A program made the position numbers and the translations under genes. A stretch of DNA of 47,978 nucleotides, from contig JAOZPG010000020.1 in assembly GCA_029932855.1 (NCBI GenBank), positions 1-47,978 on the forward strand, in the 5' to 3' direction. The notes under the pieces are model-generated. The model made no database searches. It saw nothing but the letters and a program-made list of their open reading frames with translations, and was not told the DNA's origin. The DNA is from Bacteroidales bacterium (GTDB lineage Bacteria > Bacteroidota > Bacteroidia > Bacteroidales > VadinHA17). Positions 4,181-47,978 of this stretch are shown piece by piece (position 1 is the first letter of the stretch; each line of letters begins with the position of its first letter).

Positions 4181-4203
4181 TGAAAAAAATCAATACGATT
4201 AGT

Positions 4204-4211: not shown

Positions 4212-4215
4212 TTAC

Positions 4216-25284: not shown

Positions 25285-25347
25285 TACCAGGGGATATGGC
25301 CGGAGAGTGATGAGAGAGAATTATTATTTACTTAATAATTATACGAT

Positions 25348-26907
25348 ATGAGGATTGTTATTTTTTTTATTCTAAATATTTTTCTTTTTTCATGTTCTTC
25401 AAAATACGACCTTGTAATTGATGGTGGCACCATATACGACGGATTAGGGAATGAGGCTTTTACTGCAAATATTGCTGTAAAAGACGGAGAAATTGTAAAA
25501 ATCGGAAATTTTAAACCCAGAGCACAGAAGATAATAAATGCCAAAGGAATGATTGTTTCGCCGGGTTTTATAGATGTGCATACACACATAGATGGTGGTA
25601 TAGTAAGCCGGGAAGGTTCCAGTGTTAAAAATTATCTTACCCAGGGGGTAAGCACGGTAGTAACCGGTAATTGTGGTTCGGGAACATGGAAGCTTGATGA
25701 TTATTTTGGCAGGCTTGATTCCATTGGCATCGGACCTAATGTTATACATCTTGTGGGACATGGTAGCCTTAGAAAGGCAGTTATGGGAACAGAATACAGA
25801 GCTCCAACTCCTGAGGAACTGAAGAAAATGAAAACTATGCTGGCAGATGGGATGGAAGAAGGTGCATTGGGCTTATCAACCGGTTTATTCTATGTTCCGG
25901 CAAGCTATGCAAAGACAGAAGAGATTATTTCGATTGCAGATACGTTAAAGCAATATAATGGTATTTACGCCACACATACTCGTGATGAAGGAAGTTACAA
26001 CATAGGTCTTATTGAGTCGGTAAAAGAAGCAATTGAAATTGGAGAAGAAGCAGGAGTTCAGATTGAGATATCTCATATTAAGGCGCTTGGCACAAAGGTC
26101 TGGGGCAAGTCAGTCGAGGTTTGTTCTCTTATTGAGGATGCCAGAAAAAGGGGAGTGAGTATTATGGCTGATCAGTATCCGTATATTGCATCCAATACCG
26201 GGCTTTCAGCAGCTGTTGTTCCGGCATGGGTAAGAGAAGGTGGCAAGATGAGGGAGAGGTTTGCAGACAAAAGTCTTTACCCGAAGATAGAGGCAGAAAT
26301 TCGTGAAAACTGCAAAATGCGTGGCGGACCTGAATCATTGATAATAGTATCATATCAGCCAAATCATAATTTTGATGGCCTTAACATTTCAGAGATAGCC
26401 GGGATTATGGAAATAACTCCTGTTGAAGCTATTATTGAACTATTAAGAAATGCATCCCCGGCTGTGATATCATATAATATGAACCCGGCTGATGTAGAGT
26501 ATTTTATGAAAAAGGATTATGTAATGACATGTTCGGATGGTCATGTTCAGTTCCCGGGTATAGGAAATCCACATCCTCGAAACTATGGTACATTTCCCAG
26601 GAAGATTCGAAAATATGTAATGGAAGATAGTTTAATAAGTATGGAATTTGCTATTCGTGCTGCTACATCTCTGCCGGCAAAAATGTTGGGCCTGAGTGAC
26701 AGAGGCCAGATTAGTGAGGGATATGTTGCAGATATTGTTGTATTTGATCCGGAAACCATCAGGGATATTGCTACTTTTACTGACCCTCATCAATATAGCA
26801 AGGGCATCATTTACCTATTGGTGAACGGACAGATAGTAATTGAAGACGAAGTATACAATGGAGTGCTTGCAGGAAAGACCTTGAGGATGTTTGATTACCG
26901 GAATTAA
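25348..26907 (+). CDS. N-acyl-D-amino-acid deacylase/D-aminoacylase-like lipoprotein
   Basis: The 519-residue amidohydrolase has a lipoprotein signal peptide (lipobox FLFSC, cysteine at about residue 16), so it is probably periplasm-facing or surface anchored. The metallo-hydrolase core is clear: GGTIYDGLG, SPGFIDVHTHIDGG with the metal-binding HxH (about 78-80), VVTGNCGSG, a later THTRDEG and SHIKALG, and CSDGHV near the end, followed by the PAKMLGLSDRGQI and ADIVVFD region. This fits D-aminoacylase-type enzymes that cleave N-acyl-D-amino acids or related peptides. The exact substrate is unknown; peptidoglycan or D-peptide scavenging would fit. The gene converges with the glucan operon. Confidence 0.9.
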   Translation: MRIVIFFILNIFLFSCSSKYDLVIDGGTIYDGLGNEAFTANIAVKDGEIVKIGNFKPRAQKIINAKGMIVSPGFIDVHTHIDGGIVSREGSSVKNYLTQGVSTVVTGNCGSGTWKLDDYFGRLDSIGIGPNVIHLVGHGSLRKAVMGTEYRAPTPEELKKMKTMLADGMEEGALGLSTGLFYVPASYAKTEEIISIADTLKQYNGIYATHTRDEGSYNIGLIESVKEAIEIGEEAGVQIEISHIKALGTKVWGKSVEVCSLIEDARKRGVSIMADQYPYIASNTGLSAAVVPAWVREGGKMRERFADKSLYPKIEAEIRENCKMRGGPESLIIVSYQPNHNFDGLNISEIAGIMEITPVEAIIELLRNASPAVISYNMNPADVEYFMKKDYVMTCSDGHVQFPGIGNPHPRNYGTFPRKIRKYVMEDSLISMEFAIRAATSLPAKMLGLSDRGQISEGYVADIVVFDPETIRDIATFTDPHQYSKGIIYLLVNGQIVIEDEVYNGVLAGKTLRMFDYRN

Positions 26908-27006
26908 AATAGCTCTTAAATATAAATGAGCTGTCTCCGAAATCTTAATTAGCACCAAAAAATAAGAATGCAAATTCCACAGTCGTAGTCCTGAACCAGC
27001 TTTATG

Positions 27007-30000
27007 CTATATCCATAAGTTTAAGGCAAATTCCTGGTCATGCCCCAGTAGGGGATGATGCGGAACAAGCCTGAACCCGTAATTAAATCCTCCCGAATAA
27101 GTTGGAGTTATTTTAATATTATAATGGGCTATGCTTCCTTCCGTTTTAACAAGATTAAACTCCTTCTTGTAAACAAGCTCAGGCGATTCTTCCGGTCCCC
27201 TTGAAAATATCAGTTCAAGCTTAACATCTTCGGGCACAAGTCCTTTCAGGTCTAAGGATAACTTTCCGGAATATTCCTTTCCACCCTTATACTCATTTCT
27301 TGCATCCATGGGCATGCTTACGGACAGAACCTCTATCTGCTGCCAGTTTTGTCTTAGCTTTTCTTTCCATTTTGCTACCTGCCTGGCCTTTTCATACTGG
27401 TCTTTTGAGAATTCCTTTGAACGTTTTTCAAGATCCAGGTAAAATCTTTTCATGTAATCGTTCATCATCCTCTCTGTTGTAAACTCAGGTGCCACCTCAG
27501 CCATGGTTTTCTTAATATGACTTACCCATTCTGCAGGTACACCATTTTTGTTCCTTGTATAATATGCAGGTATTATCTCATTCTCCAGCAACTGGTAAAT
27601 GGTCTCTGCATCCATTTCATCCTGGTAATCCTGGTATTCATAAGTCCTCTTTTCAGATAATGCCCATCCTGCTCCCTGTCTGTATCCTTCCACCCACCAT
27701 CCGTCAAGCACGCTGAAATGAAGTGTTCCGTTCATTACTGCTTTCTCTCCACTTGTCCCTGACGCCTCCAGTGGCCTGGTAGGAGTGTTCATCCATACAT
27801 CAACCCCTCTAACAAGTCTGGTGGCCAATGCTATGTCATAGTTTTGCAGAAAGACTATTTTTCCAATAAATTCGGGCCTTTTGGATATGGTAACTATATC
27901 CCTGATCATATCCTGTCCGGCCTTATCCTGGGGATGTGCTTTACCTGCAAAGATGAGCTGGACAGGATGCTCAGGATGATTTACTATCTGTGAGAGCCTG
28001 TCGAGGTTCTTAAACAGTAAGTGAGCACGCTTATAAGTAGCAAATCTTCTTGCAAAACCAATTGTTAAGGGTTGGGACCGGAGCTTTTCGCATATCTCAA
28101 CAATATACCTGGGATTCTCATTCCTTTGCGTCCAGTTTTGCTTTAACCTTTCTTTCAGCTTCTCTATCATAGAAGCTTTGATGCCCTGTTTTATTTCCCA
28201 TATTTTCCCGTCATCAACATCATTTATCTTTTTCCAGTCTTTATCTTTTCCCTGCCTGCCTATGTTTTCATAAAGCTCTGTCCATTCCTGGGCGGCCCAT
28301 GATTTGTAATGCACACCATTGGTTACATATCCTATTGATGATTCGTCTTCCAGGAATCCTGGCCATATACCTGCAAAAAGCTTCCTGCTCACCTGTCCGT
28401 GTAGCTTACTGACGCCGTTAGTAAACAGTGCAAGCCTTGCAGCAAGGAAACTCATATTGAATTTATCGGCATGACCGGCATCAGTTTTTCTGCCCAGTGA
28501 CAACAGCTGCTCCCAGCTTATTTTTAAGCGTTCGGGGTAATGGCCCATATATGTCCTTAAAATATCTTCGGGGAACTGGTCGTGACCAGCAGGAACGGGT
28601 GTGTGTGTTGTGAACAGGGTAGAGGCACGAACCATTTCAAGTGCTTCGTTAAATGTGAGGTTTTTCTCCCTTACCAGGCTCGCTAATCGCTCTATTCCGC
28701 TAAATGCAGAATGTCCCTCATTACTATGGAATATATCGGGATCAAGTCCCAGTTTATAAATGGCCCTGATACCTCCAATGCCAAGAAGTATTTCTTGTTT
28801 TATCCTGTTCTCAAGGTCACCTCCATAGAGGCTGTGGGTTATGGCCCTGTCCTGGTGCTGGTTTTCTTTATGATCGACATCCAGAAGGTAAAGCTTTACC
28901 CTGCCTACGTTTACCTGCCACAAATAGGCTGTTAAGCTTCTTCCCGGGAAAGCGATGTTTATACTTAGCCAGTTAGAATCTTTATCCAGCACAGGGAATG
29001 CAGGAATTTTTGAAAATTGCTCAGCATTGTAGCTAGCGGTCTGTTCCCCGTTAAGTGTAAGTACCTGTTTGAAATAACCATGTCTGTACAGAAGTCCGAA
29101 TGCAGTGATATTCACATTCGAATCACTTGCCTCTTTCAGGAAATCACCGGCAAGTATTCCCAGTCCGCCTGAAAAGATCTTGAGGCTGTCGTGAATACCA
29201 TATTCCATACTGAAATATGCTATCTCAGGACCTTTCCCTTTGCTATTCATATAGTTGTGAAATTCTTTTTCCACCTCGTTTAACAGCTTTATGAATTCCT
29301 TATCCTTACTGAGAATAAGAAGCCTTTTATAGTTTATCTCTTCAAGTAATACAATAGGATTATTTTCGCATTTCTCCCATAATGCAGGATCAACCTTTTC
29401 CCATAGCTGTATTGCTTTAAAGTTCCATGACCACCACAGGTTTTTAGAAAGTTCTTTTAAGAAATTCAGCTTCTCAGGAACATTGGATTCTACAAAGAGT
29501 TTTTTCCATACCGGTTGATAATCACTGGGTGCAGGGGGTACATAAGTTATTTCACCCGGTCGCGGCAGATCGAGTTCCTTTATCCTTTCCTCAGAGCTGC
29601 TGATCGCTATATCGTAAATATCAAAATACTTGCTTACCAGTTCTTTCCATAGTGCAGTTCTTGATATTTCAAATGCCTTTTTCCTGGCTTCTTTCATTTC
29701 TTCATCAGAAAGAGCCGCATAATGCATTATTTCTTCAGAAAGCTCTATTGCAGTTTCATCAAAATTATCGTCAGTTCGTTTAAGTACCCTGATCCCATTG
29801 CCCTGGTCGGGTATCAGGTCATTAACCCATTTACCGAATCCGGCAAGTGTGCTTGTAATAGTGGGTATATAAAATGCAAGGCTTTCCATAGGGGTATAGC
29901 CCCATGGCTCATAATAACTTGGAAATATGCTAAGGTCGAAGCCAATAAGCAGGTCGTAATAAGAGATATTAAAAAGGCCATCCTGACCGTTGAGGTAGGA

Positions 30001-31212
30001 GGGAATGAATATAAGTTTTACCTTGCTGTCATTGCCGGATGCCAGTCCGGTTGACCTGCAATAGTTAAGCACGGGATCATTGGCCGGATCACTGAGGTAG
30101 TGGGTTGTATATCTTGATCCTGCTTCATCATAGTCTGATCTTACTGCTGCCTGTTCAGGCCTGACCAGCTCCTGGCGGGGACCCGATATACCGGCAGGGA
30201 CAAGTATGAAAGCCAAGATATCTTTTTCCGGATTTTTGTCCTCTATCTTCCTGAGGGCTTCAAGAAAAACATCAATCCCCTTGTTTTTGTATTCGTAGCG
30301 GCCACTTGTTGCAACAAGAAAACTATTACTGGAAACATCATGGCCCATAGACCTGGCAAGATCAATAAGCCTTTTTCTTGAATTTGTTCTTTGCTCCCGG
30401 AACTTAGATTCATCAGGAACAAATGAGTCTTCAAAACCATTTGGTGTTACAATATCCGGTTCCTTCCCAAAGAACTGCTTACATTCCAGTGCCGTAATCT
30501 CACTAACTGTAGAATATGCATCAGCATTTATTGCTGAGAGGCTTTCCATGGATTGCTTGGAAATAACTCCAAGTTCTGATGCTGAGCGTTCGGGATCGAA
30601 CTGGTTCAATTTGCTGTACAGTGGCCTGCCATTACCGGCAAGTGCCCTTCCAAGTGATGTGGCATGAGTGGTAAATATAGTTCCTACAAAGGGTGCATGT
30701 TTCTTGAGATGTAGTATTCCTGCACCGGTCATCCATTCATGGAAATGAGCCAGTGCTCCATGCCTGAAATCTTCATAGAACAGGCACATATCCTGTATTA
30801 GTTCTCCTGCTGCCGTTCCAAACAGGGCAGGCTCAATATAGTCCCACTGGCCACTTATAGAGTCAAGCTTATAATCTTCCCAGTACTTGCTGAATATTTC
30901 ATCTTTTCTGGAAATAAGTGAGTAAAAATCTATTAGCATGGCCTTTGGCCTGCCGGGTATCTTCCATCTTCCTGTTTTAACAGAAAAAGCCTTGTTCTGG
31001 AATTGCTCCTTCCAGTCTTTAAAGAGTTCAGGATCGGGTTCAAATTCGGGGTTCTCACCTTCATCTCTCCACAGGTCGGGACCAATAAGTATATATTCAA
31101 AATCTGATTGATCAAGTATTGACTTTGCTTTTGTTGAAATGACAGTGTGAATTCCTCCTACTTTATTACAAACTTCCCAGCTGGTTTCAAATAATATCTG
31201 TGTTTTCTTCAT
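27007..31212 (-). CDS. Glycogen synthase (GT3) - alpha-glucan phosphorylase (GT35) fusion
   Basis: The 1401-residue protein joins two enzymes of opposite direction. Residues 1 to about 560 are a eukaryote-type glycogen synthase: ETSWEVCNKVGGIHTV at the start, IFTTHATSLGR, and the E-x7-E motif EPWGYTPMESL. Residues about 575-1401 are an alpha-glucan phosphorylase of the archaeal-bacterial type: the DUF3417 N-domain with NLWWSWN, then FSMEYGIHDSL, HSNEGHSAF, and the PLP lysine motif TSGEK followed by LDGWWVEGY. It would elongate glycogen from NDP-glucose and release glucose-1-phosphate. A fusion of this size occurs in Bacteroidota, so it is an established arrangement rather than a frameshift artefact. 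It is the last gene of the minus-strand operon. Confidence 0.95.
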   Translation of the reverse strand: MKKTQILFETSWEVCNKVGGIHTVISTKAKSILDQSDFEYILIGPDLWRDEGENPEFEPDPELFKDWKEQFQNKAFSVKTGRWKIPGRPKAMLIDFYSLISRKDEIFSKYWEDYKLDSISGQWDYIEPALFGTAAGELIQDMCLFYEDFRHGALAHFHEWMTGAGILHLKKHAPFVGTIFTTHATSLGRALAGNGRPLYSKLNQFDPERSASELGVISKQSMESLSAINADAYSTVSEITALECKQFFGKEPDIVTPNGFEDSFVPDESKFREQRTNSRKRLIDLARSMGHDVSSNSFLVATSGRYEYKNKGIDVFLEALRKIEDKNPEKDILAFILVPAGISGPRQELVRPEQAAVRSDYDEAGSRYTTHYLSDPANDPVLNYCRSTGLASGNDSKVKLIFIPSYLNGQDGLFNISYYDLLIGFDLSIFPSYYEPWGYTPMESLAFYIPTITSTLAGFGKWVNDLIPDQGNGIRVLKRTDDNFDETAIELSEEIMHYAALSDEEMKEARKKAFEISRTALWKELVSKYFDIYDIAISSSEERIKELDLPRPGEITYVPPAPSDYQPVWKKLFVESNVPEKLNFLKELSKNLWWSWNFKAIQLWEKVDPALWEKCENNPIVLLEEINYKRLLILSKDKEFIKLLNEVEKEFHNYMNSKGKGPEIAYFSMEYGIHDSLKIFSGGLGILAGDFLKEASDSNVNITAFGLLYRHGYFKQVLTLNGEQTASYNAEQFSKIPAFPVLDKDSNWLSINIAFPGRSLTAYLWQVNVGRVKLYLLDVDHKENQHQDRAITHSLYGGDLENRIKQEILLGIGGIRAIYKLGLDPDIFHSNEGHSAFSGIERLASLVREKNLTFNEALEMVRASTLFTTHTPVPAGHDQFPEDILRTYMGHYPERLKISWEQLLSLGRKTDAGHADKFNMSFLAARLALFTNGVSKLHGQVSRKLFAGIWPGFLEDESSIGYVTNGVHYKSWAAQEWTELYENIGRQGKDKDWKKINDVDDGKIWEIKQGIKASMIEKLKERLKQNWTQRNENPRYIVEICEKLRSQPLTIGFARRFATYKRAHLLFKNLDRLSQIVNHPEHPVQLIFAGKAHPQDKAGQDMIRDIVTISKRPEFIGKIVFLQNYDIALATRLVRGVDVWMNTPTRPLEASGTSGEKAVMNGTLHFSVLDGWWVEGYRQGAGWALSEKRTYEYQDYQDEMDAETIYQLLENEIIPAYYTRNKNGVPAEWVSHIKKTMAEVAPEFTTERMMNDYMKRFYLDLEKRSKEFSKDQYEKARQVAKWKEKLRQNWQQIEVLSVSMPMDARNEYKGGKEYSGKLSLDLKGLVPEDVKLELIFSRGPEESPELVYKKEFNLVKTEGSIAHYNIKITPTYSGGFNYGFRLVPHHPLLGHDQEFALNLWI

Positions 31213-31302
31213 GTGTATTCAAATAATTTAATTCATATCTTCTACCACATCCTGTTATTTACGGATGTAGTTATAATAATCTAAATGGATCTGATAAATC
31301 CT

Positions 31303-32760
31303 TTACTTTTTCTTTCTGCTTGTTGTTTTGGCTTTAGTTGCAGGTATTTTAGATGAGGCCGGCTTTTTCTTTCTGCTTGTTGTTTTAGTTTTAGTTGCAG
31401 CTTTTTTAGATATAGGGGCCCTGGATCCTGTACCGGTTGCCGGCTTTCTGCCTGGCTTGACTTTTGCCTGCTCACTTTTCTTAAGGCGTTCTATCTGATT
31501 CTTAAGTTTTTCAATTTCTTTTTCCTGTTTTGAAATACGCAAGTTCAATTCTGTGCTGTCTTCACTTTCAGGAGCTAAGTTCGCTTTTACCCTCAGTATG
31601 AAGTCGCTGAGAATATTCATATAGTTTATAAATGCATCGTAGGGAGAATCAAAAGGACTGAAATAAGAATGAACCTCTCCGTCGGAGAAAAACTTGGTGC
31701 ACATATAGTAAAAATGGTCGCTTGTTTGAAGGTTAAGCCAGTCGCGCTTTATATCATCCCTGTTAATCTTCATTACCATATCCTCTATGCTGTAAAGCTT
31801 ATTATATGCTTCTTCCTGTAGTTCATTACCCAACCATGCCGTAAGGTCTTTTTCTTCATCAGCCCATGATATAGGATTTGGAACATGAATAGGAGCAATG
31901 ACCTGCTTATCTCTTATGATATCTGATGGGGTAGAGAAAGAAATCCCCTTTTTCTCCTGAATAATGGCAGGCAGCTTCTCCAGAAAAGAGAATATCCCGG
32001 TTTCTTTCCACTGGTGTTCTCCGAATGTCTCGTAGTCCATGAATATATTAACTACTTCTTCATTTTCTGGTATGTTGTCTATCCATGATACAAATTTTTC
32101 AGCAGTCAGAGGCCATTCATTCCATGACTCATCAGAAAACCTGAATGCTATATCATCACTTAATTTAAAATTCCGGACAAGGACTTTTAATTTAGGATTT
32201 ATTGCATTACAATACAGGTGATTAGGACTCTTCCAACCTAGGATATGTTTGGCCCCTTCTGTAAGCATAGCTTTGTATCCCATTTTTGCCACATCATTGC
32301 CTATATCATCTGAATAGATCAATTCGGTATTCCTGAAGACTTCCGGTTTTACTCCAAAAAGTTCTTTTACAAGCTTTTCATGCATTTTTACCTGCCTGAC
32401 AAATTCATCCCGGCTCTTAAAAAAAGCAAGTGAATGGGCATAGCTCTCTGCCAGTATTTCAACTGAATCGGAAGAAGCAAGTTGCTTAAATGATTCAAGC
32501 ACATCTTCACCGTATAACTTAAACTGTTCCAGTATCATGCCTGAAAATGAAAAACTGACCTTGAACTGACCTTTGTACTTATCTATAAGATCGAGGATTA
32601 GCTTATTGGCAGGCAGGTAGCTTTTCTCAGCAACCTTTCTCAATATTGACTCATTGGTATAATCATCGTAATAATAATGGTCCGATCCTATCTCAAAAAA
32701 ACGATATCGTTTTAAACGAAAAGGCTGATGTACCTGGAAATACAAACAAATATTTTTCAT
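31303..32760 (-). CDS. Glycoside hydrolase family 57 alpha-amylase/glucanotransferase
   Basis: The 485-residue enzyme opens with the GH57 motif YFQVHQPFRLKR (7-18). The nucleophile E146 lies in FRNTELIYSDD and the acid/base D242 in FMDYETFGEH. It acts on alpha-1,4-glucans, probably shortening or rearranging malto-oligosaccharides during glycogen turnover. The last about 75 residues are not part of the enzyme: a short coiled coil (KQEKEIEKLKNQIERLKK) followed by a Lys/Ala/Thr-rich histone H1-like tail with a duplicated TTSRKKK unit. The gene lies between the GT4 and fusion genes, 50 and 90 bases away. Confidence 0.94.
   Translation of the reverse strand: MKNICLYFQVHQPFRLKRYRFFEIGSDHYYYDDYTNESILRKVAEKSYLPANKLILDLIDKYKGQFKVSFSFSGMILEQFKLYGEDVLESFKQLASSDSVEILAESYAHSLAFFKSRDEFVRQVKMHEKLVKELFGVKPEVFRNTELIYSDDIGNDVAKMGYKAMLTEGAKHILGWKSPNHLYCNAINPKLKVLVRNFKLSDDIAFRFSDESWNEWPLTAEKFVSWIDNIPENEEVVNIFMDYETFGEHQWKETGIFSFLEKLPAIIQEKKGISFSTPSDIIRDKQVIAPIHVPNPISWADEEKDLTAWLGNELQEEAYNKLYSIEDMVMKINRDDIKRDWLNLQTSDHFYYMCTKFFSDGEVHSYFSPFDSPYDAFINYMNILSDFILRVKANLAPESEDSTELNLRISKQEKEIEKLKNQIERLKKSEQAKVKPGRKPATGTGSRAPISKKAATKTKTTSRKKKPASSKIPATKAKTTSRKKK
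31306..31413 (-). repeat. 57-bp direct repeat encoding the basic tail of the GH57 protein
   Basis: A 24-base run is identical at 31306-31329 and 31363-31386, and similarity continues for about 50 bases. The period is 57 bases or 19 residues, giving ATKTKTTSRKKK and ATKAKTTSRKKK. It is a recent in-frame tandem duplication and a likely site of length variation. Confidence 0.85.
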
Positions 32761-32810
32761 ATTTTATTTAAGTGTTTGTTTATCTTTTTATAAATAATCA
32801 TATATAATAT

Positions 32811-34097
32811 TTATACTAGTTCTTTATATATCTCTAAAAGCTGCCTTGCAGAATTTTCCCATTTTAGGTCATCAACTTCTGCCTTACCATGTTTGCGGAA
32901 CATTTTATAAAGTGCCGGGTATTTCAAAATGCCGTAAATAGCATCCGACATTGCATCAATATCCCAGTAATTAACTTTTATTGCATGCGTAAGTATCTCA
33001 GCTACTCCCGACTGGTGAGATATTATTACCGGCACATTAGACTGCATTGCTTCAAGGGGGGATATGCCGAATGGTTCGGATACAGATGGCATTATATATA
33101 CATCGCTGTATTCCAGCATTTTATATACATCATCACCTCTAAGGAAGCCGGTAAAGTGGAAGCGGTCCATAATGTTTTTTGATGCAGCAAGCTTTATCAT
33201 ATCAGTCATCATATCACCACTGCCGGCCATAACAAATCTTACATCTTTAGTCCTTTCCAGTACCCTGCTGGCTGCTTCAACAAAATATTCAGGGCCTTTT
33301 TGCATAGTTATCCTGCCAAGAAAGGTCACTATTTTCTCATTCGATCCATTTAAGAGTTTTCTCTTTTCTTTTTCACGTTCAAGTGGTTCAACGGCATTAT
33401 ATACAGTGCTTACTTTTTCAGCAGGGATATTATATTTCTCAATTACCGTTTGCCGTGTAAGGTTGCTTACAGTAATTATCCTGTCGGCAGTATCCATACC
33501 TTTTTTCTCAATCGCATAAACGTCGGGGTTTACTTTGCCTCCGCTTCTGTCGAAATCTGTAGCATGAACATGAATAACAAGAGGTTTACCCGATACTTCC
33601 TTTGCTGCTATTCCTGCCGGATATGCCAGCCAGTCGTGGGCATGAATGATATCGAATGATTCATTGTCTGCAATTACCCCGGCAACAATGGCATAATTTG
33701 CAATTTCCTGCATGAGGTTTTCAGTATACTTGCCACTGAAGTTTATCTTTCCATGCTCATCTGTCTGGATGAACTTATAATCTGAGGAAACTTCTTTGCT
33801 TTTGAGTCTCCAGAAATCCTCAGGATCAGTATATGGTACTATTTTGGAGCTTACTTCTATATAATCGAGTTTAGATCTGCCTTTACCAAGATTGATCTTC
33901 TTTCTTGTAACAGGAATATTACTGGCACCGATTATCCTGGCAATGCTATTGTCTTCATCACCATAAGCTTTTGGTACCACGAACAGGAGTTCGTTGGATC
34001 CCAGTGCAGAAAATCCCTTTGCAAGACCGTAACTGGCCGTTCCAAGTCCCCCGGAAATATGTGGTGGAAATTCCCACCCGAACATTAGTACCCTCAT
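32811..34097 (-). CDS. GT4-family glycosyltransferase of the glycogen operon
   Basis: The 428-residue GT-B glycosyltransferase has the N-terminal glycogen-synthase-like loop FGWEFPPHISGGLGTASYGL (residues 6-25), AHDWLA, the nucleotide-binding VYNAVEP region and FLGRITMQKGPEY, and the E-x7-E motif EPFGISPLE. Homologues sit beside the synthase-phosphorylase fusion, GH57 and debranching genes in Bacteroides-type genomes. It probably transfers glucose from a nucleotide sugar to an alpha-glucan or makes a glucan primer; donor and acceptor are not visible from sequence. It starts 6 bases after the debranching-enzyme stop, so the two are tightly coupled. Confidence 0.92.
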   Translation of the reverse strand: MRVLMFGWEFPPHISGGLGTASYGLAKGFSALGSNELLFVVPKAYGDEDNSIARIIGASNIPVTRKKINLGKGRSKLDYIEVSSKIVPYTDPEDFWRLKSKEVSSDYKFIQTDEHGKINFSGKYTENLMQEIANYAIVAGVIADNESFDIIHAHDWLAYPAGIAAKEVSGKPLVIHVHATDFDRSGGKVNPDVYAIEKKGMDTADRIITVSNLTRQTVIEKYNIPAEKVSTVYNAVEPLEREKEKRKLLNGSNEKIVTFLGRITMQKGPEYFVEAASRVLERTKDVRFVMAGSGDMMTDMIKLAASKNIMDRFHFTGFLRGDDVYKMLEYSDVYIMPSVSEPFGISPLEAMQSNVPVIISHQSGVAEILTHAIKVNYWDIDAMSDAIYGILKYPALYKMFRKHGKAEVDDLKWENSARQLLEIYKELV

Positions 34098-34103
34098 GTT
34101 GTG

Positions 34104-36047
34104 TTAATTAAAATCATCAAGCATCTTCATTACCCGTAGTAATTCAGCAACGCTCCAGGCCTGTGAGATAGTCCCCCTGCCATGATGAGGCGGATTACCG
34201 TCATATATTTCCGATATAGATCCTATACCGTCATTTTCCATTTCTTCCTCATAAACATCCAGCAGGCTTTGTATTCTGCGAACACCACTTTGCTTGTTAA
34301 GCTTAAGGTATGCTTCTGCAAAGTGTCCGAATAGCCATGGCCAGGCCGTTCCCTGGTGATATGCACTATCTCTTTCTTCCTGGTTACCAACACACATCCC
34401 TTTATACTTGGGATCGGCCGGAGAGAGTGTACGCAAGCCCCTTGTGGTAAGCAGTTCTTTTTCAATCAGATCAAGAACAGATTTCTTTATCTCATCCTCA
34501 AGCGGGGAGTAGGGTAGAGAAAGTGCAAATACCTGGTTGGGCCTTATATCCCAGTCTTTATAATCGCCATTAACATAATCTGCAAGATATCCTTTCTCAG
34601 GGTCCCAGAATGTGTTTACGAAGTTCTCCCTTATCTTCTCTGGTAAATCTTTCCAGTCATCAGGGCTTTTATCCTTTCCTGCCTTTCCTGCCAGTTCAAT
34701 GTAAAAAGAAATGGCATTATACCAGAGGGCATTGATCTCTACATTATAACCAATTCTTGGTGTAAGGGCTTTCCCGTTTACTATAGCATCCATCCATGTA
34801 AGTGCTTTGCCTTCCTGTCCGGCATAAATAAGGGAGTTATCATGCATTTTGATATTGAACTCAGTTCCTTTCCTGTAGGCTTCAAGTATGTTTGAAATGG
34901 TTTTATTATAACTTTTCCAGACAGATACCGGATCATTAACATATTCGGCATACTGCTGAATTGCCCATATAAACCACAAGGGTGCATCAACAGAATTAAA
35001 AGCATGACCTTCGCTTCCCTCTATATTGGGGAATAAACCCCCTTTCATTTTTTTAAGCTGGGTATCAAGAACAGCTTTACATTTTTTGGGGTTATCAAGT
35101 GCCAGCGTAAGGCCCGGCAGTGATATAAAAGTATCACGGCCCCATACTCCAAACCATGGGAAGCCGGCAATTATATTTATCTGGCCTTTATTTTTTACAA
35201 AAAATTGTTTGGCCGAGTTAACAAGGCAATTCCTGAAGCATGTTCTTGGATTCCTGTCCCTGGTTTCCCATCTGAATTTTTGCTTAAGACCTGAAGGATT
35301 AATGCTTTTTGTGCTTGCCGATAATATTATGCTTTCACCCTTTTTAATTGGTATTTCAAAATAGCCGGGTACAAAAAGATCTTCGGTATAATCATATCCT
35401 CTTTCCATCTCTTTCTGGTAAACAATATTATTGTACCAGTCGGGGACTGAAACATATTCAGCCGCTTTGTTAAACTGAATGCTAAGCCATGGATATCCCT
35501 CATATAACCTGAACTTTACTCCGTTTTCAACTTCCTCGAATTTTGAAGAAACAAACATATTGGCTTTTGATAACTTGTGGTATTCCCTGAAAGCAAGGAA
35601 AGGTTGCAGTTTAAGTCTAGTGTCTGATTGTGCTTCAAGAAGAGTGTATTTAATAAGGATCTGTTCCTGGTTTTTTGCCAGTACGCGTTCCCTTGATAGC
35701 ACAACCCCACCTACACGAACTATAGTTGAAGGGAGCTTGTCTGCATTGAATTCGCGCAGATATTTATGACCTCTTGGTTCAAAATGATCGGCATTATACT
35801 GGTGTATCCCTATGTTAAAAGACCTATCGTGCTGAATAATAGTCTCATCAATTGAAGAAAGCAAAACATGATGTGTTCCGCCAAACTGTTCCAGGGGACA
35901 AACAAGCAAACCATGGTATTTTCTTGTATTACATCCGGCCAGGGTAGTAAGTGCATAAGAACCGGCACGGTTAGTCCTGAGCACTTCCCTGTTAAGAGAA
36001 TGCTTCAGGTTAACAAGTTTGGCTTTATCGAAAAATAAATAACTCAT
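34104..36047 (-). CDS. Glycogen debranching enzyme (amylo-alpha-1,6-glucosidase type)
   Basis: The 647-residue protein has the GDE N-terminal beta-sandwich (LNREVLRTNRAGSYALTTL at about 18-36, NTRKYHGLLV) and the C-terminal alpha/alpha-barrel glucosidase domain (FPWFGVWGRDTFISLPGL, LTWMDA, PNQVFALSLP, HQGTAWPWLFG). This matches the bacterial/archaeal GDE-type amylo-alpha-1,6-glucosidase that hydrolyses branch points of glycogen. It is the first gene of the four-gene minus-strand operon. Confidence 0.95.
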   Translation of the reverse strand: MSYLFFDKAKLVNLKHSLNREVLRTNRAGSYALTTLAGCNTRKYHGLLVCPLEQFGGTHHVLLSSIDETIIQHDRSFNIGIHQYNADHFEPRGHKYLREFNADKLPSTIVRVGGVVLSRERVLAKNQEQILIKYTLLEAQSDTRLKLQPFLAFREYHKLSKANMFVSSKFEEVENGVKFRLYEGYPWLSIQFNKAAEYVSVPDWYNNIVYQKEMERGYDYTEDLFVPGYFEIPIKKGESIILSASTKSINPSGLKQKFRWETRDRNPRTCFRNCLVNSAKQFFVKNKGQINIIAGFPWFGVWGRDTFISLPGLTLALDNPKKCKAVLDTQLKKMKGGLFPNIEGSEGHAFNSVDAPLWFIWAIQQYAEYVNDPVSVWKSYNKTISNILEAYRKGTEFNIKMHDNSLIYAGQEGKALTWMDAIVNGKALTPRIGYNVEINALWYNAISFYIELAGKAGKDKSPDDWKDLPEKIRENFVNTFWDPEKGYLADYVNGDYKDWDIRPNQVFALSLPYSPLEDEIKKSVLDLIEKELLTTRGLRTLSPADPKYKGMCVGNQEERDSAYHQGTAWPWLFGHFAEAYLKLNKQSGVRRIQSLLDVYEEEMENDGIGSISEIYDGNPPHHGRGTISQAWSVAELLRVMKMLDDFN

Positions 36048-42041: not shown

Positions 42042-43664
42042 CTAAGCAGGTAATGCTTCCCGTGTATCAAGTTTCGACTTTTTGAATATTCCAAGTGCCC
42101 CGTTTATCCCTACGGTCATTACAATGTTTACAAAGAACACAAGGAATGATATAAGGAGCAGTGCACCACAGATACCGGCCAGTATCATGTACAAGTTATA
42201 TTCTCCTTCAAAATAGATTGTCCGGCGCAGCATTCCTTTCAGGCCTGCCATACCCATAAAGGCTCCCATTCCTATACCACCGATGAGATGTCCCCAGAAA
42301 TGTATGTTAGCAAGTTTATTGCTGTACCATTTTCCCCCATTGGTAAGAATTGGCAAGAGTATATATATGGCTGAATACAGGGTCATTGACAGGCCAATAA
42401 GAATAGCTACATGAACATGAGGCCCGATTATCCATTGAGTATTATGAAGAATGCGGTTCAGGCCGAGGTCTGCTTGCATTATACCTGCAGGAACAGCCAG
42501 TGCAAAGCCGAGAAGCCCTCCCAGGAGGAATTTCAGGGGATTTGTCATTTTTAACGGCCTGGCACTCCAGAGGGTTGCCAGAACTATAAAGAAAGCAAGT
42601 CCCTGGGTAATAAGCTCAAAAGCAGTTACCATCTCACCGGAAAATACCTTTAAAAAGCCCGGCTGGGCCTGGTCAGACATAAGGTGATGCGACCATACTG
42701 TCCAGGAAACAACAAGTTCAAGGAGTAAGGCGGCACGTGCTATATTCTGCATAAACAGTTGTTTTCCGGTAATAAGTGTGGCCAGTAAATACCATGTTCC
42801 TGCAACAAATATCAATACAAGTCCGTCGGCTACAAGGTCCAGACCCCACCAGAACCAGTTTTTATAAAGCAGGGCATCAATAGCACTCTCCTTTAGGTCG
42901 TAGCCCAATATTGCAGCTACCATATATACAAGGATAAGAACCCCTGTAAAAAGGATTATCCCCGAGTTTAAGGCAACATCAACAGTCCCCCTTGCAATAG
43001 CAGCAACGGGAAGAGAAACAAGATGTTCCTTTCTTTTATTTTTTCGTTTGAAAATATTCTCAACACCACTCACCCCCAGGGCAGAAGCCAGCAGTGACCT
43101 TGAAGGCTGCTTCTCCCATCCTTCAGGCGTGTACATAATGGTTTTGAATATATTTATTACAAAAAACACTGCACCTACCATTAAAATGGCTATTCCCAGA
43201 ATGAATATTGTACCGCCGACAACGCTGAACTGTTCAAAATCTGCGGGCAATGGCCAGTAAAGAGTATACAGAGGTGCGTAATGGGAAATAAATCCTGCAG
43301 TCCAGAATATAAAAGTTCCGATAGTTATAAGCAGGAATGTCCAGTTTGCAAGCTTAATGCTCCAGATAGGTTTTTTCATAAGAAAGGGAACCAGGAAGAG
43401 AAAGGCCCCGAAAACTATATTATAGGTTGACCCGAATATACCGACCAGTGGATGGGCGGTCATTATGGCGAAGAACTGTTTAGGTTCTATCTGGGAAATT
43501 GGTTCTATCTGGTATATTCTCATTATCATTCCTTCAACTGCAGTCATAAGGTAAAAGATAAGTCCGAAAATCACCATCCTGAGAGCAATTTTTTGCAGAC
43601 TGGTTTGTGAATCAGGCTTAAATGTCCCCCCTTCACCATTCATTAATGTATTTATGAAACTCAT
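42042..43664 (-). CDS. Heme-copper oxidase superfamily subunit I with altered active site (candidate nitric-oxide reductase)
   Basis: The 540-residue protein has about 12-13 membrane helices. Heme ligands of the superfamily are present: H71 in TAHPL (low-spin heme), and H416 and H418 in PHVHVA. Two of the three CuB/FeB histidines are present as H326-H327 in WSHHL. In the helix where the third histidine should sit, the motif is WWGLDLVADG: D276 takes the place of the histidine and D280 that of the acidic residue in cytochrome-c NO reductase (WWxxHLWVEG). There is no tyrosine in the HPxVY pattern of oxygen reductases. Together with a CuA-less subunit II and an NsrR-like gene, this suggests a non-canonical NO reductase rather than an oxidase. 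It is last in a three-gene operon. Confidence 0.87.
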   Translation of the reverse strand: MSFINTLMNGEGGTFKPDSQTSLQKIALRMVIFGLIFYLMTAVEGMIMRIYQIEPISQIEPKQFFAIMTAHPLVGIFGSTYNIVFGAFLFLVPFLMKKPIWSIKLANWTFLLITIGTFIFWTAGFISHYAPLYTLYWPLPADFEQFSVVGGTIFILGIAILMVGAVFFVINIFKTIMYTPEGWEKQPSRSLLASALGVSGVENIFKRKNKRKEHLVSLPVAAIARGTVDVALNSGIILFTGVLILVYMVAAILGYDLKESAIDALLYKNWFWWGLDLVADGLVLIFVAGTWYLLATLITGKQLFMQNIARAALLLELVVSWTVWSHHLMSDQAQPGFLKVFSGEMVTAFELITQGLAFFIVLATLWSARPLKMTNPLKFLLGGLLGFALAVPAGIMQADLGLNRILHNTQWIIGPHVHVAILIGLSMTLYSAIYILLPILTNGGKWYSNKLANIHFWGHLIGGIGMGAFMGMAGLKGMLRRTIYFEGEYNLYMILAGICGALLLISFLVFFVNIVMTVGINGALGIFKKSKLDTREALPA

Positions 43665-43697
43665 GGTTATTGTATTTAATTAAGTTTTGATTTTGAT

Positions 43698-44267
43698 TTA
43701 TTCAGCCGGTCTGTTCTCCGGCTCTTTTACCACCACCACATTTTTTTCTATCATCTGTATACCGGCGGGACCGGAATATTCGGTAGACCTGATAGAATAA
43801 ATTCCGGGTTTAACAAATTGCCACATGATATCATTCAGGTGGCCCGGGACTACCTGCATCTGGAAAAGCATGGAATTATCTTCCCTGAATAATCCAAATC
43901 CGTAAGTAAGATCATTTGATCTGACATTGAACATTACCTTGTCACCTACATCAATAATAAGTTTCCCGGAAGGCAGTATATATTTGTGGTTTTCTACACT
44001 GATATCAAAAGTCTTATCAGCTGTTATCTCTGCCCTGTTTAAATCCATATGTTTCCATGGAATTGTATGTGCTGTGGCAATATGAAGAGAAACACCGAGA
44101 ACCACGAGAAAGCCAACCCATACATAGAAAATGGCAGGCTTAACAATAGTGCTTTTGCCTTTTTTTGTTACAGCCACTGCAAACCATGCCATTATAGACA
44201 TAATGGCTATGGTATAGGCCGTGTAGGCGATTGTTTGTCCGTTAAGAACAAGAGTTGAATCAACCAT
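43698..44267 (-). CDS. Subunit-II-like membrane cupredoxin without CuA ligands
   Basis: The 189-residue protein has two transmembrane helices (about 11-34 and 44-66) followed by a periplasmic cupredoxin-fold domain of the cytochrome-oxidase subunit II type (VENHKYILPSGKLIIDVGDKV, FVKPGIYSI). All expected CuA ligands but two are replaced: Y122 for His, S161 and S165 for the two cysteines, G169 for His; E163 and M172 are kept. It cannot bind CuA in the usual way, so electrons probably come from quinol or directly from another carrier to subunit I. The start is fixed by an unusually strong Shine-Dalgarno GGAGG five bases upstream. It is 33 bases upstream of the subunit I gene. Confidence 0.88.
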   Translation of the reverse strand: MVDSTLVLNGQTIAYTAYTIAIMSIMAWFAVAVTKKGKSTIVKPAIFYVWVGFLVVLGVSLHIATAHTIPWKHMDLNRAEITADKTFDISVENHKYILPSGKLIIDVGDKVMFNVRSNDLTYGFGLFREDNSMLFQMQVVPGHLNDIMWQFVKPGIYSIRSTEYSGPAGIQMIEKNVVVVKEPENRPAE

Positions 44268-44272
44268 AATAA

Positions 44273-44277
44273 CCTCC
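44273..44277 (-). promoter_or_regulatory. Shine-Dalgarno of the subunit II gene
   Basis: GGAGG on the minus strand lies five bases before the ATG. Strong Shine-Dalgarno sequences are rare in Bacteroidota, so it stands out and fixes the start. Confidence 0.7.
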
Positions 44278-44315
44278 GGTTTTAGTTAATAATTAATATG
44301 TAATTACAATTTCTT

Positions 44316-44747
44316 TTATCTGTCATTCTTGTTTATATCAAGTCCCTTAATTTTTGTTTTTTGCAGATCTGCCAGGCTTGTACCGGTAAGAGTATCAATG
44401 ATCTTCTTCCTTGTCTCAGCCCATATCTCATGCATGGGACAGGGATTCTCCAGGTCGCACTGGTATCTGCCGAGCAGGCATTTATCAAAACTCTCAAATC
44501 CATCAATTGCACTTATGATATCAGAAAGGTAAATTGACCGGATATCTTTAGCAAAGACAAAGCCTCCCTTTCTGCCCCTGAGGCTTTTAACAAAACCATT
44601 TTTCGCCAGCTTTGACATTATGCGTGCGGTATAGCTATGGGGGATATCCAGTTTTTCGTATAGCAGCTTAGCTGTGTATTGAGGATAATCTTCAGTAGCC
44701 ATGAAGCTGAGGATCTTTAATGAATATTCGCTTGTCTTACTGAGCAT
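44316..44747 (-). CDS. Rrf2-family regulator with three cysteines (NsrR-like)
   Basis: The 143-residue protein has the Rrf2 winged helix: TSEYSLKIL at 5-13, a recognition helix in HSYTARIMSKLAKNGF and the wing with RGRKGGF. Three cysteines C90, C97 and C103 (C-x6-C-x5-CP) are placed as the iron-sulfur ligands of NsrR/IscR-type proteins. Such clusters sense nitric oxide or iron-sulfur status. The gene is the first of the operon with the two oxidase-like genes and 48 bases upstream of subunit II, so auto-regulation and control of NO detoxification is the natural reading. The ligand and exact target are inferred. Confidence 0.9.
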   Translation of the reverse strand: MLSKTSEYSLKILSFMATEDYPQYTAKLLYEKLDIPHSYTARIMSKLAKNGFVKSLRGRKGGFVFAKDIRSIYLSDIISAIDGFESFDKCLLGRYQCDLENPCPMHEIWAETRKKIIDTLTGTSLADLQKTKIKGLDINKNDR

Positions 44748-44748
44748 T

Positions 44749-44778
44749 ATAAAATACCACCTTTAGGTATTATTTTAT
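44749..44778 (-). promoter_or_regulatory. Palindrome overlapping the ribosome-binding region of the Rrf2 gene
   Basis: ATAAAATACC (44749-44758) and GGTATTATTTTAT (44766-44778) form an imperfect inverted repeat with perfect AATACC/GGTATT inner arms and a 7-base spacer. The minus-strand spacer side holds AGGTGG, a possible Shine-Dalgarno, directly before the ATG at 44747. A regulator bound here would block expression, consistent with auto-repression. Confidence 0.5.
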
Positions 44779-44817
44779 AAATATATATTTAATAGCAATT
44801 AAAGAGGCTTATAATAA

Positions 44818-44854: not shown

Positions 44855-47800
44855 TTAGTCGGGTTTTGAAGTTTGGAATTTTTGAGTCCACCACCATGAA
44901 ATAAGAATTACAAACAATATTCCGAGAATTCCCCCGAAAAGGGAAGATGGGATGGCTCCGATAAATATTTCTTTAACAATAGCCGTTATAATATATACAG
45001 CTGCAATATACGGAATCCAGTTATAGTGATATCTGAGGAAGTAAATGTATATCAACAATAAAACTGTACCAATTATAAGGCCGCTGATTATCCAGTATGC
45101 ATATCTTTCCAGGCCATTTACCGACATTAACAGTCCGGTAAGAACAGTAAGACCTCCATAGAGCAGTTTTGACCTGGTCCATTTATTGCTAAACTTATCC
45201 AGTGCAGCATATAATATCAGCAGGAAGCCTGCCGCAGCTATATATGATTGTATTTTGCCTGATCCTATGCTTAAGGCCGGTAATAAATTTCCTGCTGCTG
45301 AATAATCTCCTGTAAGCGGAGCTGTTTTTATTTCGAACTTCATAAGCAAGGACTGTAAACCTACAAGAAAGAATCCAAGACTGACAGCTTTTAGCCAGTC
45401 ATAATTATTAAATGTCAAAGAGATCTTCAGATGGGATGACATACCCCCGATAATCCCATATCCTGCTGAAGAGAATATTGCAGCTATTGCCATTGAAACA
45501 AGTAGCATTGTAATGAAATTGGATAGGGGAATGCTTGTCTGATATGAATACATTATTGAATCCCATCCCAGGAATGTGTCCAAAATAAACAGAATAAAGA
45601 ATGTTATACCGAAATAAATGAATAGAGGGAGAAGGAATTTTTTCCTGGTCCATCGAAAAATTCCCCATACCATTCCTGCAATAAGGATAAGAATGGGAAT
45701 AATGCCCCCGATAGTCCTTAGAATAGTTCTTTTGCTCTGTTCATTTTTATAATTTCTTTCCCAGTCCTCAGGAATATGAACAAAGGCAGAAGCGGCAACA
45801 GCTTCATCCCCATCAATTGTAAGCTTGTATCTGCCCTGTCCTATATCAGGAGTATAATTTAATGTGTCTGCATATACAAAGCTCCAGTTCCTTCTGTTTT
45901 CCAACTTTTCAGGAGTAACGGAAATTTCTTTCAGGCTTTTCCTGTTTAAACCAAAAGTTTCTGTTATTAATGAATCAGCAATAATCTGAGCCTCTGCCTG
46001 TTCAAGGACAGCCCCTTCCCGTTTTTCGGGTATCTTATGATAAAAACTCCATACCTTACCATTTGCATCTATCTCAATGCCGTATTCTTCTGCCCGTTCT
46101 TCTACTCCTCCTGACATTTTAACCAGTCTGAACATCCACCTTGGGGGAGAAAGAAATTTGCCGATAGTTTTATCATATCCTTCCTTACCTGATTCTTTCC
46201 AGATGAATTTTTGTGCAAGACCAGAGCCGGCAGAAACCTGTGACAGAATTTTCCATTCTTCTGCAATAACTCCAAACCTGGATGAGAGTTCATTTACCGC
46301 AATTTCCTTTGCTTCCTGCCCGGATATTTCCAGTTTAGGGGCATCAGCCTTAAAGGGAGTGAAGAGTAACCATAGTACAAGTCCCACAATACCTGCCGGA
46401 ATAAGAAACCTGGAAAGTGATGTTTTTGCAGAATTGATATCAGCTACTTCCTCTTTTTTCTTAAGTTTCTGTGGTGGAGCTTCCCATCCAATATTTCTTA
46501 ACTTGTCGGGTACAACAGTCCATTTTTTATTCTGAAGTCTTCTGAAAAGAACTATCCATAAAGGAATAAACATAATGATCAGTACCAGAATCCTGTCTGT
46601 CCATATTCCCGGTGATTCAGCTACCCATAATGGGAGAGAGAACCAGAAAACGTCGACTGTAAAATGTGCAATAATAATTGGGATAAGTCCATATCCCAGG
46701 TAAATCAGACCCATGATCATAAAGGGTACTACCATCTCAAGTACCCTGGCATAACTTGGTTGTTGAGGGTAATTTGCATGTCCTGCACCAAAAATCAGGG
46801 TCTGAATGAAGAGTACAAGTATTATCCATACATTTTTGTACCTGGATTTACGTGTAAGCAGAACAATTCCTGCAAGAGGGATAGCACGTGCAAGAGTTTC
46901 TTCCCAGAACCCTGCCTGTAGGGATAATGCAATAGAATTGAACCATGGCATATAATTAGCGAGAATATTTGGATCAGACAGTTCTCCGGCAGGACTCCAC
47001 CATCCTACCTTTTTTGTAATTACATAGAATAACACATCTATACCAATCATTATAACCATGAAAAGATATCCTGCCATGGTTTGTCCCAATACGGAAACAG
47101 AGCCCCCGCTCTCTTTACTCCAGCTTTTCCATAATTGTAAATGGCGTGGGAAAGCTTCTCTGCCCAAACCTTCAGCCGACATAAATGTCAAAGCAATGAC
47201 AGCTCCCATAACAAGAGAAAGTAAAAATGAATTTACCAGTGTACTTGATAAGAAGCTGGCAGAACCGGTAGATGTTTCGTAACCAAACCATGACAAGGGG
47301 ATTCCGTTTAATGAAGTAAAAAACACAGATCCCAGTGCAATAGAAATACCCCATATTAAGGCAGGCTTCCATATTAACTTTCTGGTTTTCAATAGAAAAA
47401 AGAGACCGATAAAAACTCCAAAGAAACCGTAAAGCAAAATAAGTCCCATCGTTCCAAAAGAAGCTATGGTATTATTTTTAGATCTCATTTCTGAGTACCT
47501 TCTGTTGAAATCGTCAGGAATCTTTACGAAATATTTTAGTTCGCTAAGCTTATCACCACTTACTTTTAGCTTTAACCTGTATTTCCCATCACCCACAACT
47601 ATATCAGATCTTTCAAAAATGAAACTATGATCTGTTCTGCCACTTTCAACTTCTTCTTTTGAATTCTCAACAAGTTCATAATCTGAAAGATCAAGCTGCC
47701 AGTTTTCAGAAGCTTCCCTTTTTGCTATGGATAATGCAACAGAGTCCTCAAGAGCTGCACCTGCCACAGAATCTGCAATTATTTCAGTAAAACCGTAAGG

Positions 47801-47978
47801 TTCACCTGAGGGAGTGAACCTGAATTCAACCTCGTTAGTTTCATATTCACGAAAGTGTCTCACTTTCCAGATATAGGAACTGTATTTATTTTCAGCCAGT
47901 ATGTTTTTAAACTCCTCAAGTCCACCTGCTTCCAGTTCAACAAAATTCTGAAAAGTATCGTCATTAGTAAAAACAACT
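44855..47978 (-). CDS. Internally duplicated CPBP-family intramembrane protease, 5' end cut by the window
   Basis: The reading frame is open to the window edge: a GTG at 47863 is not the true start, because 38 further in-frame codons without a stop precede it. The visible 1040 residues consist of two copies of the same plan: a periplasmic PepSY-like part, one membrane helix, then a multi-helix membrane domain. The first membrane domain carries the CPBP (Rce1-like) glutamic-protease motifs EETLAR (encoded near 46890-46903), FGAGH (near 46780) and HFTVD (near 46655). The second copy (about 46350 to 44855) keeps the fold pattern but lacks them. CPBP proteins cleave or bind small peptides and prenylated proteins within the membrane. 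The substrate is unknown. Confidence 0.85.
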   Translation of the reverse strand, partial: VVFTNDDTFQNFVELEAGGLEEFKNILAENKYSSYIWKVRHFREYETNEVEFRFTPSGEPYGFTEIIADSVAGAALEDSVALSIAKREASENWQLDLSDYELVENSKEEVESGRTDHSFIFERSDIVVGDGKYRLKLKVSGDKLSELKYFVKIPDDFNRRYSEMRSKNNTIASFGTMGLILLYGFFGVFIGLFFLLKTRKLIWKPALIWGISIALGSVFFTSLNGIPLSWFGYETSTGSASFLSSTLVNSFLLSLVMGAVIALTFMSAEGLGREAFPRHLQLWKSWSKESGGSVSVLGQTMAGYLFMVIMIGIDVLFYVITKKVGWWSPAGELSDPNILANYMPWFNSIALSLQAGFWEETLARAIPLAGIVLLTRKSRYKNVWIILVLFIQTLIFGAGHANYPQQPSYARVLEMVVPFMIMGLIYLGYGLIPIIIAHFTVDVFWFSLPLWVAESPGIWTDRILVLIIMFIPLWIVLFRRLQNKKWTVVPDKLRNIGWEAPPQKLKKKEEVADINSAKTSLSRFLIPAGIVGLVLWLLFTPFKADAPKLEISGQEAKEIAVNELSSRFGVIAEEWKILSQVSAGSGLAQKFIWKESGKEGYDKTIGKFLSPPRWMFRLVKMSGGVEERAEEYGIEIDANGKVWSFYHKIPEKREGAVLEQAEAQIIADSLITETFGLNRKSLKEISVTPEKLENRRNWSFVYADTLNYTPDIGQGRYKLTIDGDEAVAASAFVHIPEDWERNYKNEQSKRTILRTIGGIIPILILIAGMVWGIFRWTRKKFLLPLFIYFGITFFILFILDTFLGWDSIMYSYQTSIPLSNFITMLLVSMAIAAIFSSAGYGIIGGMSSHLKISLTFNNYDWLKAVSLGFFLVGLQSLLMKFEIKTAPLTGDYSAAGNLLPALSIGSGKIQSYIAAAGFLLILYAALDKFSNKWTRSKLLYGGLTVLTGLLMSVNGLERYAYWIISGLIIGTVLLLIYIYFLRYHYNWIPYIAAVYIITAIVKEIFIGAIPSSLFGGILGILFVILISWWWTQKFQTSKPD

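Follow-up and report, generated by a model that had tools for sequence, protein, structure and literature searches.

Introduction

The gNOR group of nitric-oxide reductases (NORs) was reportedly defined by Murali in 2024, an earlier reference for it being Hemp and Gennis (2008). The families named as biochemically characterised in the accessible part of PMC11388526 are cNOR, qNOR, bNOR and eNOR; gNOR is listed there as proposed only and is placed, together with sNOR and nNOR, among proposed families related to the B-type oxidases. Encoded by the norGH genes, gNOR is described as quinone-oxidising and non-electrogenic (available sections of PMC8906906). The active-site residue is tyrosine in oxygen reductases, where it is conserved and takes part in cofactor cross-linking, glutamate in cNOR and qNOR, asparagine in sNOR, glutamine in eNOR and aspartate in gNOR (PMC8756737, Table A4 and accompanying excerpts). 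The gNOR hosts named in the accessible parts of PMC8756737 and PMC6094997 are Sulfurimonas, Sulfurovum, Persephonella and Methylomirabilis, with no Bacteroidota among them; in Ca. Methylomirabilis oxyfera the genes are Damo_1118-1119 (PMC6094997, same parts). Here we analyse a three-gene operon from a Bacteroidales bacterium (assembly GCA_029932855.1), located in a stretch of 47,978 nucleotides of contig JAOZPG010000020.1 that we refer to as the window, which on the basis of its predicted metal site and second subunit probably encodes a two-subunit, membrane-bound NOR of the gNOR (norGH) type.

Operon organization and the catalytic subunit

The operon occupies 44747-42042 on the minus strand in the order Rrf2-family regulator, subunit II, subunit I, exactly where the original prediction, a brief annotation made from the letters of the window, had placed it. 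The regulator gene (44316..44747; PF02082, E 7.3e-29) is separated by 48 bases from the gene of subunit II (43698..44267; TIGR02866, E 1.5e-7), which is followed after 33 bases by that of subunit I (42042..43664; 540 amino acids; PF00115 (COX1), 186 bits, E 1.1e-54). Given these short gaps, the three genes are likely to be co-transcribed. A terminator scan found no terminator. The residues that had been singled out by number were all correct, namely H71, D276, H326, H327, H416 and H418 of subunit I, Y122, S161, S165 and G169 of subunit II, and Cys90, 97 and 103 of the regulator.

Eleven members of the subunit I family were aligned with 22 references from other genomes and plasmids, comprising nine A-type, three B-type, five C-type and five qNOR sequences. 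The canonical ligands align with His71, the helix II heme ligand (codon 43452..43454), with His326-His327, the two remaining metal ligands on helix VII (42684..42689), and with His416 and His418, the heme ligands on helix X (42411..42419), all encoded on the minus strand like the residues that follow. Asp276 (42837..42839) aligns with the helix-VI histidine that is kept by 22/22 of the A-, B-, C-type and qNOR references, which bears out the claim that the third histidine has been replaced. Four residues further on lies Asp280 (42825..42827), a second substitution at the metal site that had gone unmentioned in the earlier annotation; this H+4 position holds tyrosine in A and B types, glutamate in qNOR and glycine or alanine in the five C-type sequences, the aligner offsetting the A and B types by one column near Asp280 and the spacing from the histidine being identical when counted. 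In C-type enzymes the tyrosine is located on another helix, and in gNOR, too, the helix-VI histidine is reportedly replaced by aspartate. Both aspartates and the five histidines are invariant in 51/51 aligned relatives, and the motif GLDL[IV]ADG is present in 119/119 open reading frames (ORFs) of the family scoring >600 bits (91 distinct sequences); the substitutions are therefore not the result of sequencing error or chance. The combination of a helix-VI histidine with tyrosine at H+4 that marks A- and B-type oxygen reductases is thus absent from subunit I, which has D276 and D280 instead, as is the third, helix-VI histidine that marks the C-type (cbb3) enzymes. Nor does subunit I show the HLWVE helix-VI motif and single long chain of qNOR: it carries GLDL[IV]ADG and falls outside the qNOR clade.

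Pfam and NCBIfam models place subunit I in the heme-copper superfamily, with scores far below every equivalog cut-off shown, and a single-sequence search of solved structures at E <=1 returned plant COX1 (46 bits) as its only match. Structure prediction, which had been proposed as a check along with the original prediction, recovered a heme-copper fold: the AlphaFold2 (AF2) model has a mean predicted local distance difference test (pLDDT) score of 81 and a Z score of 33.9 to cytochrome oxidase subunit I. The fold search thus identified the general heme-copper fold, with oxidases at the top and a nitric-oxide reductase also listed (Z 30.7).

Subunit II

The operon loci analysed are the best 80 of 410 relative-encoding stretches among 500 genome-contig matches; 79 of the 80 have a called subunit I (in L096 the ORF is present and was missed by gene calling) and 75 have a called gene at position -2. 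Subunit II is the upstream neighbour (-1) of subunit I in 78/78 loci. It is predicted to consist of two transmembrane helices and a cupredoxin domain, and its structural model, which has the same composition, superimposes on 2cua, the CuA domain of ba3 oxidase, with a Z score of 11.2 and a root-mean-square deviation of 2.5 over 95 residues, most of the listed fold matches being tied within 1 Z unit. Against the CuA domains of T. thermophilus ba3, the best match by sequence, subunit II has Ser, Ser and Gly where the metal-binding loop has Cys, Cys and His, and Tyr in place of the other histidine. These four residues (Y122, S161, S165, G169) are invariant in 79/79 subunits II, with Met172 kept in 76/79, so that the proposed loss of the CuA ligands extends to the whole set while the cupredoxin fold is retained. 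Judged from these residues, CuA is absent from subunit II, and because its ligands are lost quinol is the likely electron donor, as the simplest inference.

The regulator and its candidate operator

A homologue of the Rrf2-family regulator occupies position -2 in 52/75 loci with a called gene there, and the motif C-X6-C-X5-C-X2-H (C90, C97, C103 and H106 in the window) is present in 53/53 Rrf2 proteins, that of the window included. As given in the accessible part of PMC5411485, S. coelicolor NsrR uses Cys93/99/105 (CX5CX5C) together with Asp8, and EcIscR uses Cys92, Cys98, Cys104 and His107. All 53 proteins therefore carry the IscR-type set of three cysteines and a histidine, with a first loop one residue longer than in IscR. 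None has the NsrR arrangement as it occurs in S. coelicolor, the one NsrR protein in this comparison: the spacing is CX6CX5C in 53/53, and the position of Asp8 is variable (E 27, S 18, K 6, Q 1, D 1). NCBIfam models score the window's regulator at 69.5 bits for SUF, 67.2 for IscR and 40.9 for NsrR, all under the equivalog cut-offs (207.55 bits in the case of IscR), and among PDB matches IscR (43 bits) exceeds NsrR (25 bits). The first gene is thus indeed an Rrf2 protein with three cysteines, as had been claimed, but the cysteines are not spaced like those of S. coelicolor NsrR; the case for NO reduction that had been built on an NsrR-like regulator is weak. Identity with NsrR by name is unsupported, and the cysteine ligand set is the reason to think that the protein would act as an Fe-S sensor. 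Among the papers searched, none names both 'Rrf2' and 'gNOR', and a literature search on the control of nitric-oxide reductase by Rrf2 proteins in Bacteroidetes listed a single review, which deals with flavohaemoglobin.

A shared-dyad search upstream of the first gene identified ATACCT-N2-AGGTAT in 7/53 Rrf2-linked loci, vs. at most 3 in 30 shuffle rounds. With a palindromic weight model applied in leave-one-out fashion, a site >9 bits was found in 50/52 Rrf2-linked loci, the model having been trained on sites from the same related loci and its expression written after the sites had been seen; one of the two site-less loci, L081, has a matching palindrome that falls outside the scan owing to the called start and was counted as a miss. 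Where Rrf2 is lacking, such a site was present in none of 26 loci, of which two offered <60 nt for scanning; among shuffled loci, 21/1040 exceeded the threshold, the shuffles preserving base-to-base transitions on average only. An earlier model, trained on regions before Rrf2 only, had given sites >9 bits in 35/53 Rrf2-linked loci, 0/24 loci without Rrf2 and 2/530 shuffles. Keeping in mind that the loci are related and the counts are not independent events, we argue for selection from the palindrome's switch of place between two genes: among the 50 loci it lies before Rrf2 only in 33, before subunit II only in 9 and before both in 8.

In the window, the candidate operator is a 20-bp palindrome at 44754..44773 (ATAATACCTAAAGGTGGTAT on the minus strand) which scores 21.6 bits, is the best of three sites >9 bits in the whole window, was outside the training set and is separated from the Rrf2 start by 6 bases. 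It is overlapped by a weak promoter-like pair (44769..44798, minus strand, 9/12 matches), weak in that the region holds 11 promoter-like sites vs. 8.2 (standard deviation 2.6) expected. In the 14 genomes whose family copy is full-length, a search for the core pattern with 0-1 mismatch gave six sites, of which five stood at the operon and the sixth (G026:C2) away from it. Allowing <=2 mismatches gave 37 sites vs. 20 for a reversed-pattern control, for which reason adjacent genes were read at the six sites with 0-1 mismatch only. Since five of the six strongest palindromes are at the operon, the regulator looks dedicated rather than global; with sites in 50/52 Rrf2-linked loci and in 0/26 loci lacking Rrf2, a dedicated regulator/operator pair is likely.

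These data bear on the signal as well. It is possible, though less likely than not, that the regulator is an Fe-S or iron-status sensor of the IscR/SUF kind and that the operon answers iron or oxidative stress, as would suit both the ligand set found throughout the 53 proteins and the SUF/IscR identity of the best models and PDB matches; the dedicated rather than global look of the palindrome and NCBIfam scores that all stay under the equivalog cut-offs count against it.

Distribution and phylogeny

The subunit I family occurs in 15/60 related genomes, the window's own included, one copy being truncated by the end of its contig and the other 14 full-length; two further genomes in a tally of 17 have weak matches to other heme-copper proteins only. 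Across 395 genomes of the phylum, full-length members score ~1000 bits and other heme-copper proteins ~56 bits at most. Bacteroidales and other Bacteroidota dominate the host titles among the best 80 of 410 relatives; Ignavibacteria and Chlorobi appear in some, Acidobacteriota in one and Patescibacteria, perhaps through a binning error, in another. The window's nearest relatives in this set bear the titles Bacteroidota and Bacteroidales. In the phylum to which the Acidobacteriota record belongs, 4/247 genomes carry the family, that record's own genome among them. The 15 pattern matches in viral contigs included no relative, and 30 plasmid records were all <60% identical, the six examined all showing motifs or models of A- or B-type oxidases.

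In a 33-sequence tree whose references are of the A, B, C and qNOR types (with none from sNOR, eNOR, bNOR, gNOR, nNOR or cNOR), the family forms a fully supported clade of its own on a long stem branch (1.4 substitutions per site), outside the references, each group of which forms its own clade. Tree placement had been suggested as a further check; its outcome is that the family does not fall within the oxygen-reductase references, and that the split deciding its nearest neighbour has 41% support. As regards the relation of gNOR to the B type, that split stands beside the sequence of subunit II, which is closest to ba3.

The long stem, the score gap in the 395 genomes, a reference set without gNOR, nNOR, sNOR, eNOR, bNOR and cNOR, and hosts of gNOR that are named outside Bacteroidota in the accessible parts of PMC8756737 and PMC6094997 would also suit a separate heme-copper family belonging to no named NOR, with an aspartate at the tyrosine position acquired by convergence and with NO or another small molecule as its substrate. 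We regard this as unlikely, as the published gNOR marks that can be checked, the aspartate and the CuA-less cupredoxin subunit II, are present. Similarly doubtful is the fuller version in which a 2-His/1-Asp non-heme-metal family outside the named NORs, governed by an IscR-like Fe-S switch through a dedicated palindrome, would serve as a stand-alone, quinol-driven NO scavenger in non-denitrifying anaerobes.

Genome context

In its own genome (96.1% complete), subunit I is the only PF00115 match and is accompanied by one cytochrome bd. NosZ, NirK and Hcp were searched for in this genome and not found, NirS and nitrate reductases lying outside the search. The NrfA family is represented only by a weak match, short and lying within a 769-codon frame (20 bits; 28.8 bits with neighbours, nominally above the 24.1 cut-off); in the comparison of relatives, NrfA was counted from 129 bits up, whereby the weaker PF02335 matches of this genome and of G026 (38.5 bits) were dropped. 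Across the 60 relatives, neither NosZ, NrfA and Hcp nor qNOR, A-type and cbb3 genes were associated with the family, the last three having been assigned by score and length, not individually. A weak association was seen with cytochrome bd, found in 15/15 genomes with the family vs. 33/45 without it (p 0.027, one of seven tests, uncorrected; the copy of G013, counted among the latter, is a fragment), and in 8/15 family-bearing genomes the family subunit I is the only heme-copper subunit found. Based on the presence of cytochrome bd together with the failure to find another heme-copper subunit, NosZ, NirK or Hcp, NO detoxification is likelier than denitrification. That the same enzyme takes part in respiratory denitrification is correspondingly improbable: one genome of the same genus, G002, has both the family and NosZ, but in the window's own genome a search for NosZ, NirK, Hcp and NrfA gave no more than that NrfA-family match, and the relatives reveal no association. 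Least probable is that the enzyme is a quinol oxygen reductase whose metal site has been altered and which is active at trace O2, a reading that the oxidases at the top of the fold search and the loss of CuA, typical of quinol oxidases such as bo3, might recommend (though a nitric-oxide reductase is listed there too), but that we set aside since both the third histidine and the tyrosine position are changed in the alignment, cytochrome bd being moreover already in the genome.

Beyond subunit II and Rrf2, clustering of neighbouring genes gave a next cluster in 10 loci. A Pfam scan of 135 flanking proteins (complete ORFs of 100-480 amino acids only, at three positions per locus) contained, among the 25 of 109 families listed, tRNA pseudouridine synthase (9), sulphur transport (8), hemerythrin (5) and Crp-type regulators (3). 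In the relative L003, where no Rrf2 gene neighbours the operon, the adjoining gene at 4030-4494 encodes a truncated bacterial globin (PF01152), and in L086, likewise without Rrf2, a protein of 154 amino acids with sub-threshold similarity to COX1 and NnrS (340-804) lies directly upstream of subunit II. Proteins of 421-432 amino acids with weak COX1 similarity occur in L142 and L141, which derive from the genomes of L087 and L090, respectively; that of L142 lies next to a DUF2249/DUF1858 protein, a few kb from the operon within one contig, and may be an NO-stress neighbour. Elsewhere in the window, 44855-47863 encodes a membrane protein of 1002 amino acids with no convincing Pfam or NCBIfam match, in which the motif EETLAR presumably points to a CPBP-like protease, and 23266-36047 holds a glycogen cluster with a branching-enzyme-like protein, an alpha-glucan phosphorylase, a glycogen-synthase-like glycosyltransferase and an archaeal-type debranching enzyme.

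Discussion

We favour a gNOR-type enzyme because an aspartate at the Tyr/Glu position (D280, 51/51 relatives) and a cupredoxin second subunit devoid of CuA in 79/79 sequences, as expected of a quinol-oxidising enzyme, match the published descriptions of gNOR. The proposal of a non-canonical NO reductase thereby remains the best reading and is narrowed to one type, while the support it had drawn from the regulator is weak and the genome context contributes no NosZ, NirK or Hcp.

Several observations weigh on the other side. The AF2 model is weak at the metal site, with mean pLDDT values of 63-71 for residues 261-290, 53 for 321-340 and 44-64 for 401-420; the tree, with its 41% split, does not join the family clade to the B references; and the gNOR name is taken from published features, gNOR having been compared by description. 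The regulator is closer to IscR/SUF regulators than to NsrR, and with the earlier palindrome model 16/777 upstream regions of other genes also exceeded the threshold, some of them belonging to divergent genes that share the same intergenic region. Genome context provides no support for NO metabolism, as NosZ is present in 1/15 family-bearing genomes vs. 1/45 without the family, NrfA in 3/15 vs. 14/45 and Hcp in 3/15 vs. 13/45, with NirK above the cut-off in 0/60; the flanking genes are mostly unrelated, hemerythrin domains accounting for 5/135 of the scanned proteins.

If the operon does encode a gNOR-type reductase, we infer a scheme in which NO as substrate, quinol as donor, the identity of the metal, the Fe-S cluster and the repressor action with its signal are all predictions. 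Electrons from the quinol pool would enter subunit I, CuA being absent from subunit II, and would pass via a low-spin heme (His71/His418) to a binuclear site, where His416 would bind a high-spin heme and His326 and His327 a non-heme metal whose third ligand, usually a histidine, would be Asp276. There, two NO would be converted to N2O and water, and Asp280, which replaces the Tyr/Glu of other families, could carry protons to the site. The Fe-S-type Rrf2 regulator would bind the 20-bp palindrome near its own start or that of subunit II, and probably keeps the operon repressed for as long as NO, O2 or a lack of iron has not damaged or removed its cluster. Shielding the quinol/cytochrome-bd chain from outside NO is the most likely role of the enzyme in this organism.

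With many close and strongly conserved members, a regulator and a candidate site, two questions become testable: does a 2-His/1-Asp metal site reduce NO, and which signal drives the operon? If N2O is indeed made, Bacteroidota that have neither nir nor nos genes would be a source of this gas that has been overlooked.

Compared with known regulators, the Rrf2 protein resembles IscR and NsrR in its three-cysteine ligand set and palindromic operator, with the histidine of IscR type, but differs from NsrR in its spacing (CX6CX5C vs. CX5CX5C in the accessible part of PMC5411485); the NsrR box gATGyAT-N5-ATrCATc, as given in the available sections of PMC1274295, is shorter than and unlike the operator found here, ATRMTAY-N6-RTAKYAT. 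Among the enzymes, cNOR differs in using a cytochrome c subunit (accessible part of PMC8756737). qNOR likewise has a carboxylate, glutamate, four residues past the helix-VI ligand, but keeps histidine (HLWVE) at the position of Asp276 and is one longer chain. The B-type (ba3) oxidases provide the cupredoxin domains closest by sequence to subunit II, yet they keep CuA, the histidine and the tyrosine, and the tree does not join the two. The closest likeness is to gNOR (norGH), which shares the aspartate at the Tyr/Glu position and a cupredoxin subunit II without CuA, with quinol as the likely donor; the hosts differ, being Bacteroidota, genomes titled Ignavibacteria or Chlorobi and some titled Acidobacteriota. 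Cumulatively, the enzyme most likely belongs to this known class, biochemically uncharacterised according to the available text of PMC11388526, to which the present analysis adds a second aspartate (D280), a corrected view of the regulator and a strong candidate operator.

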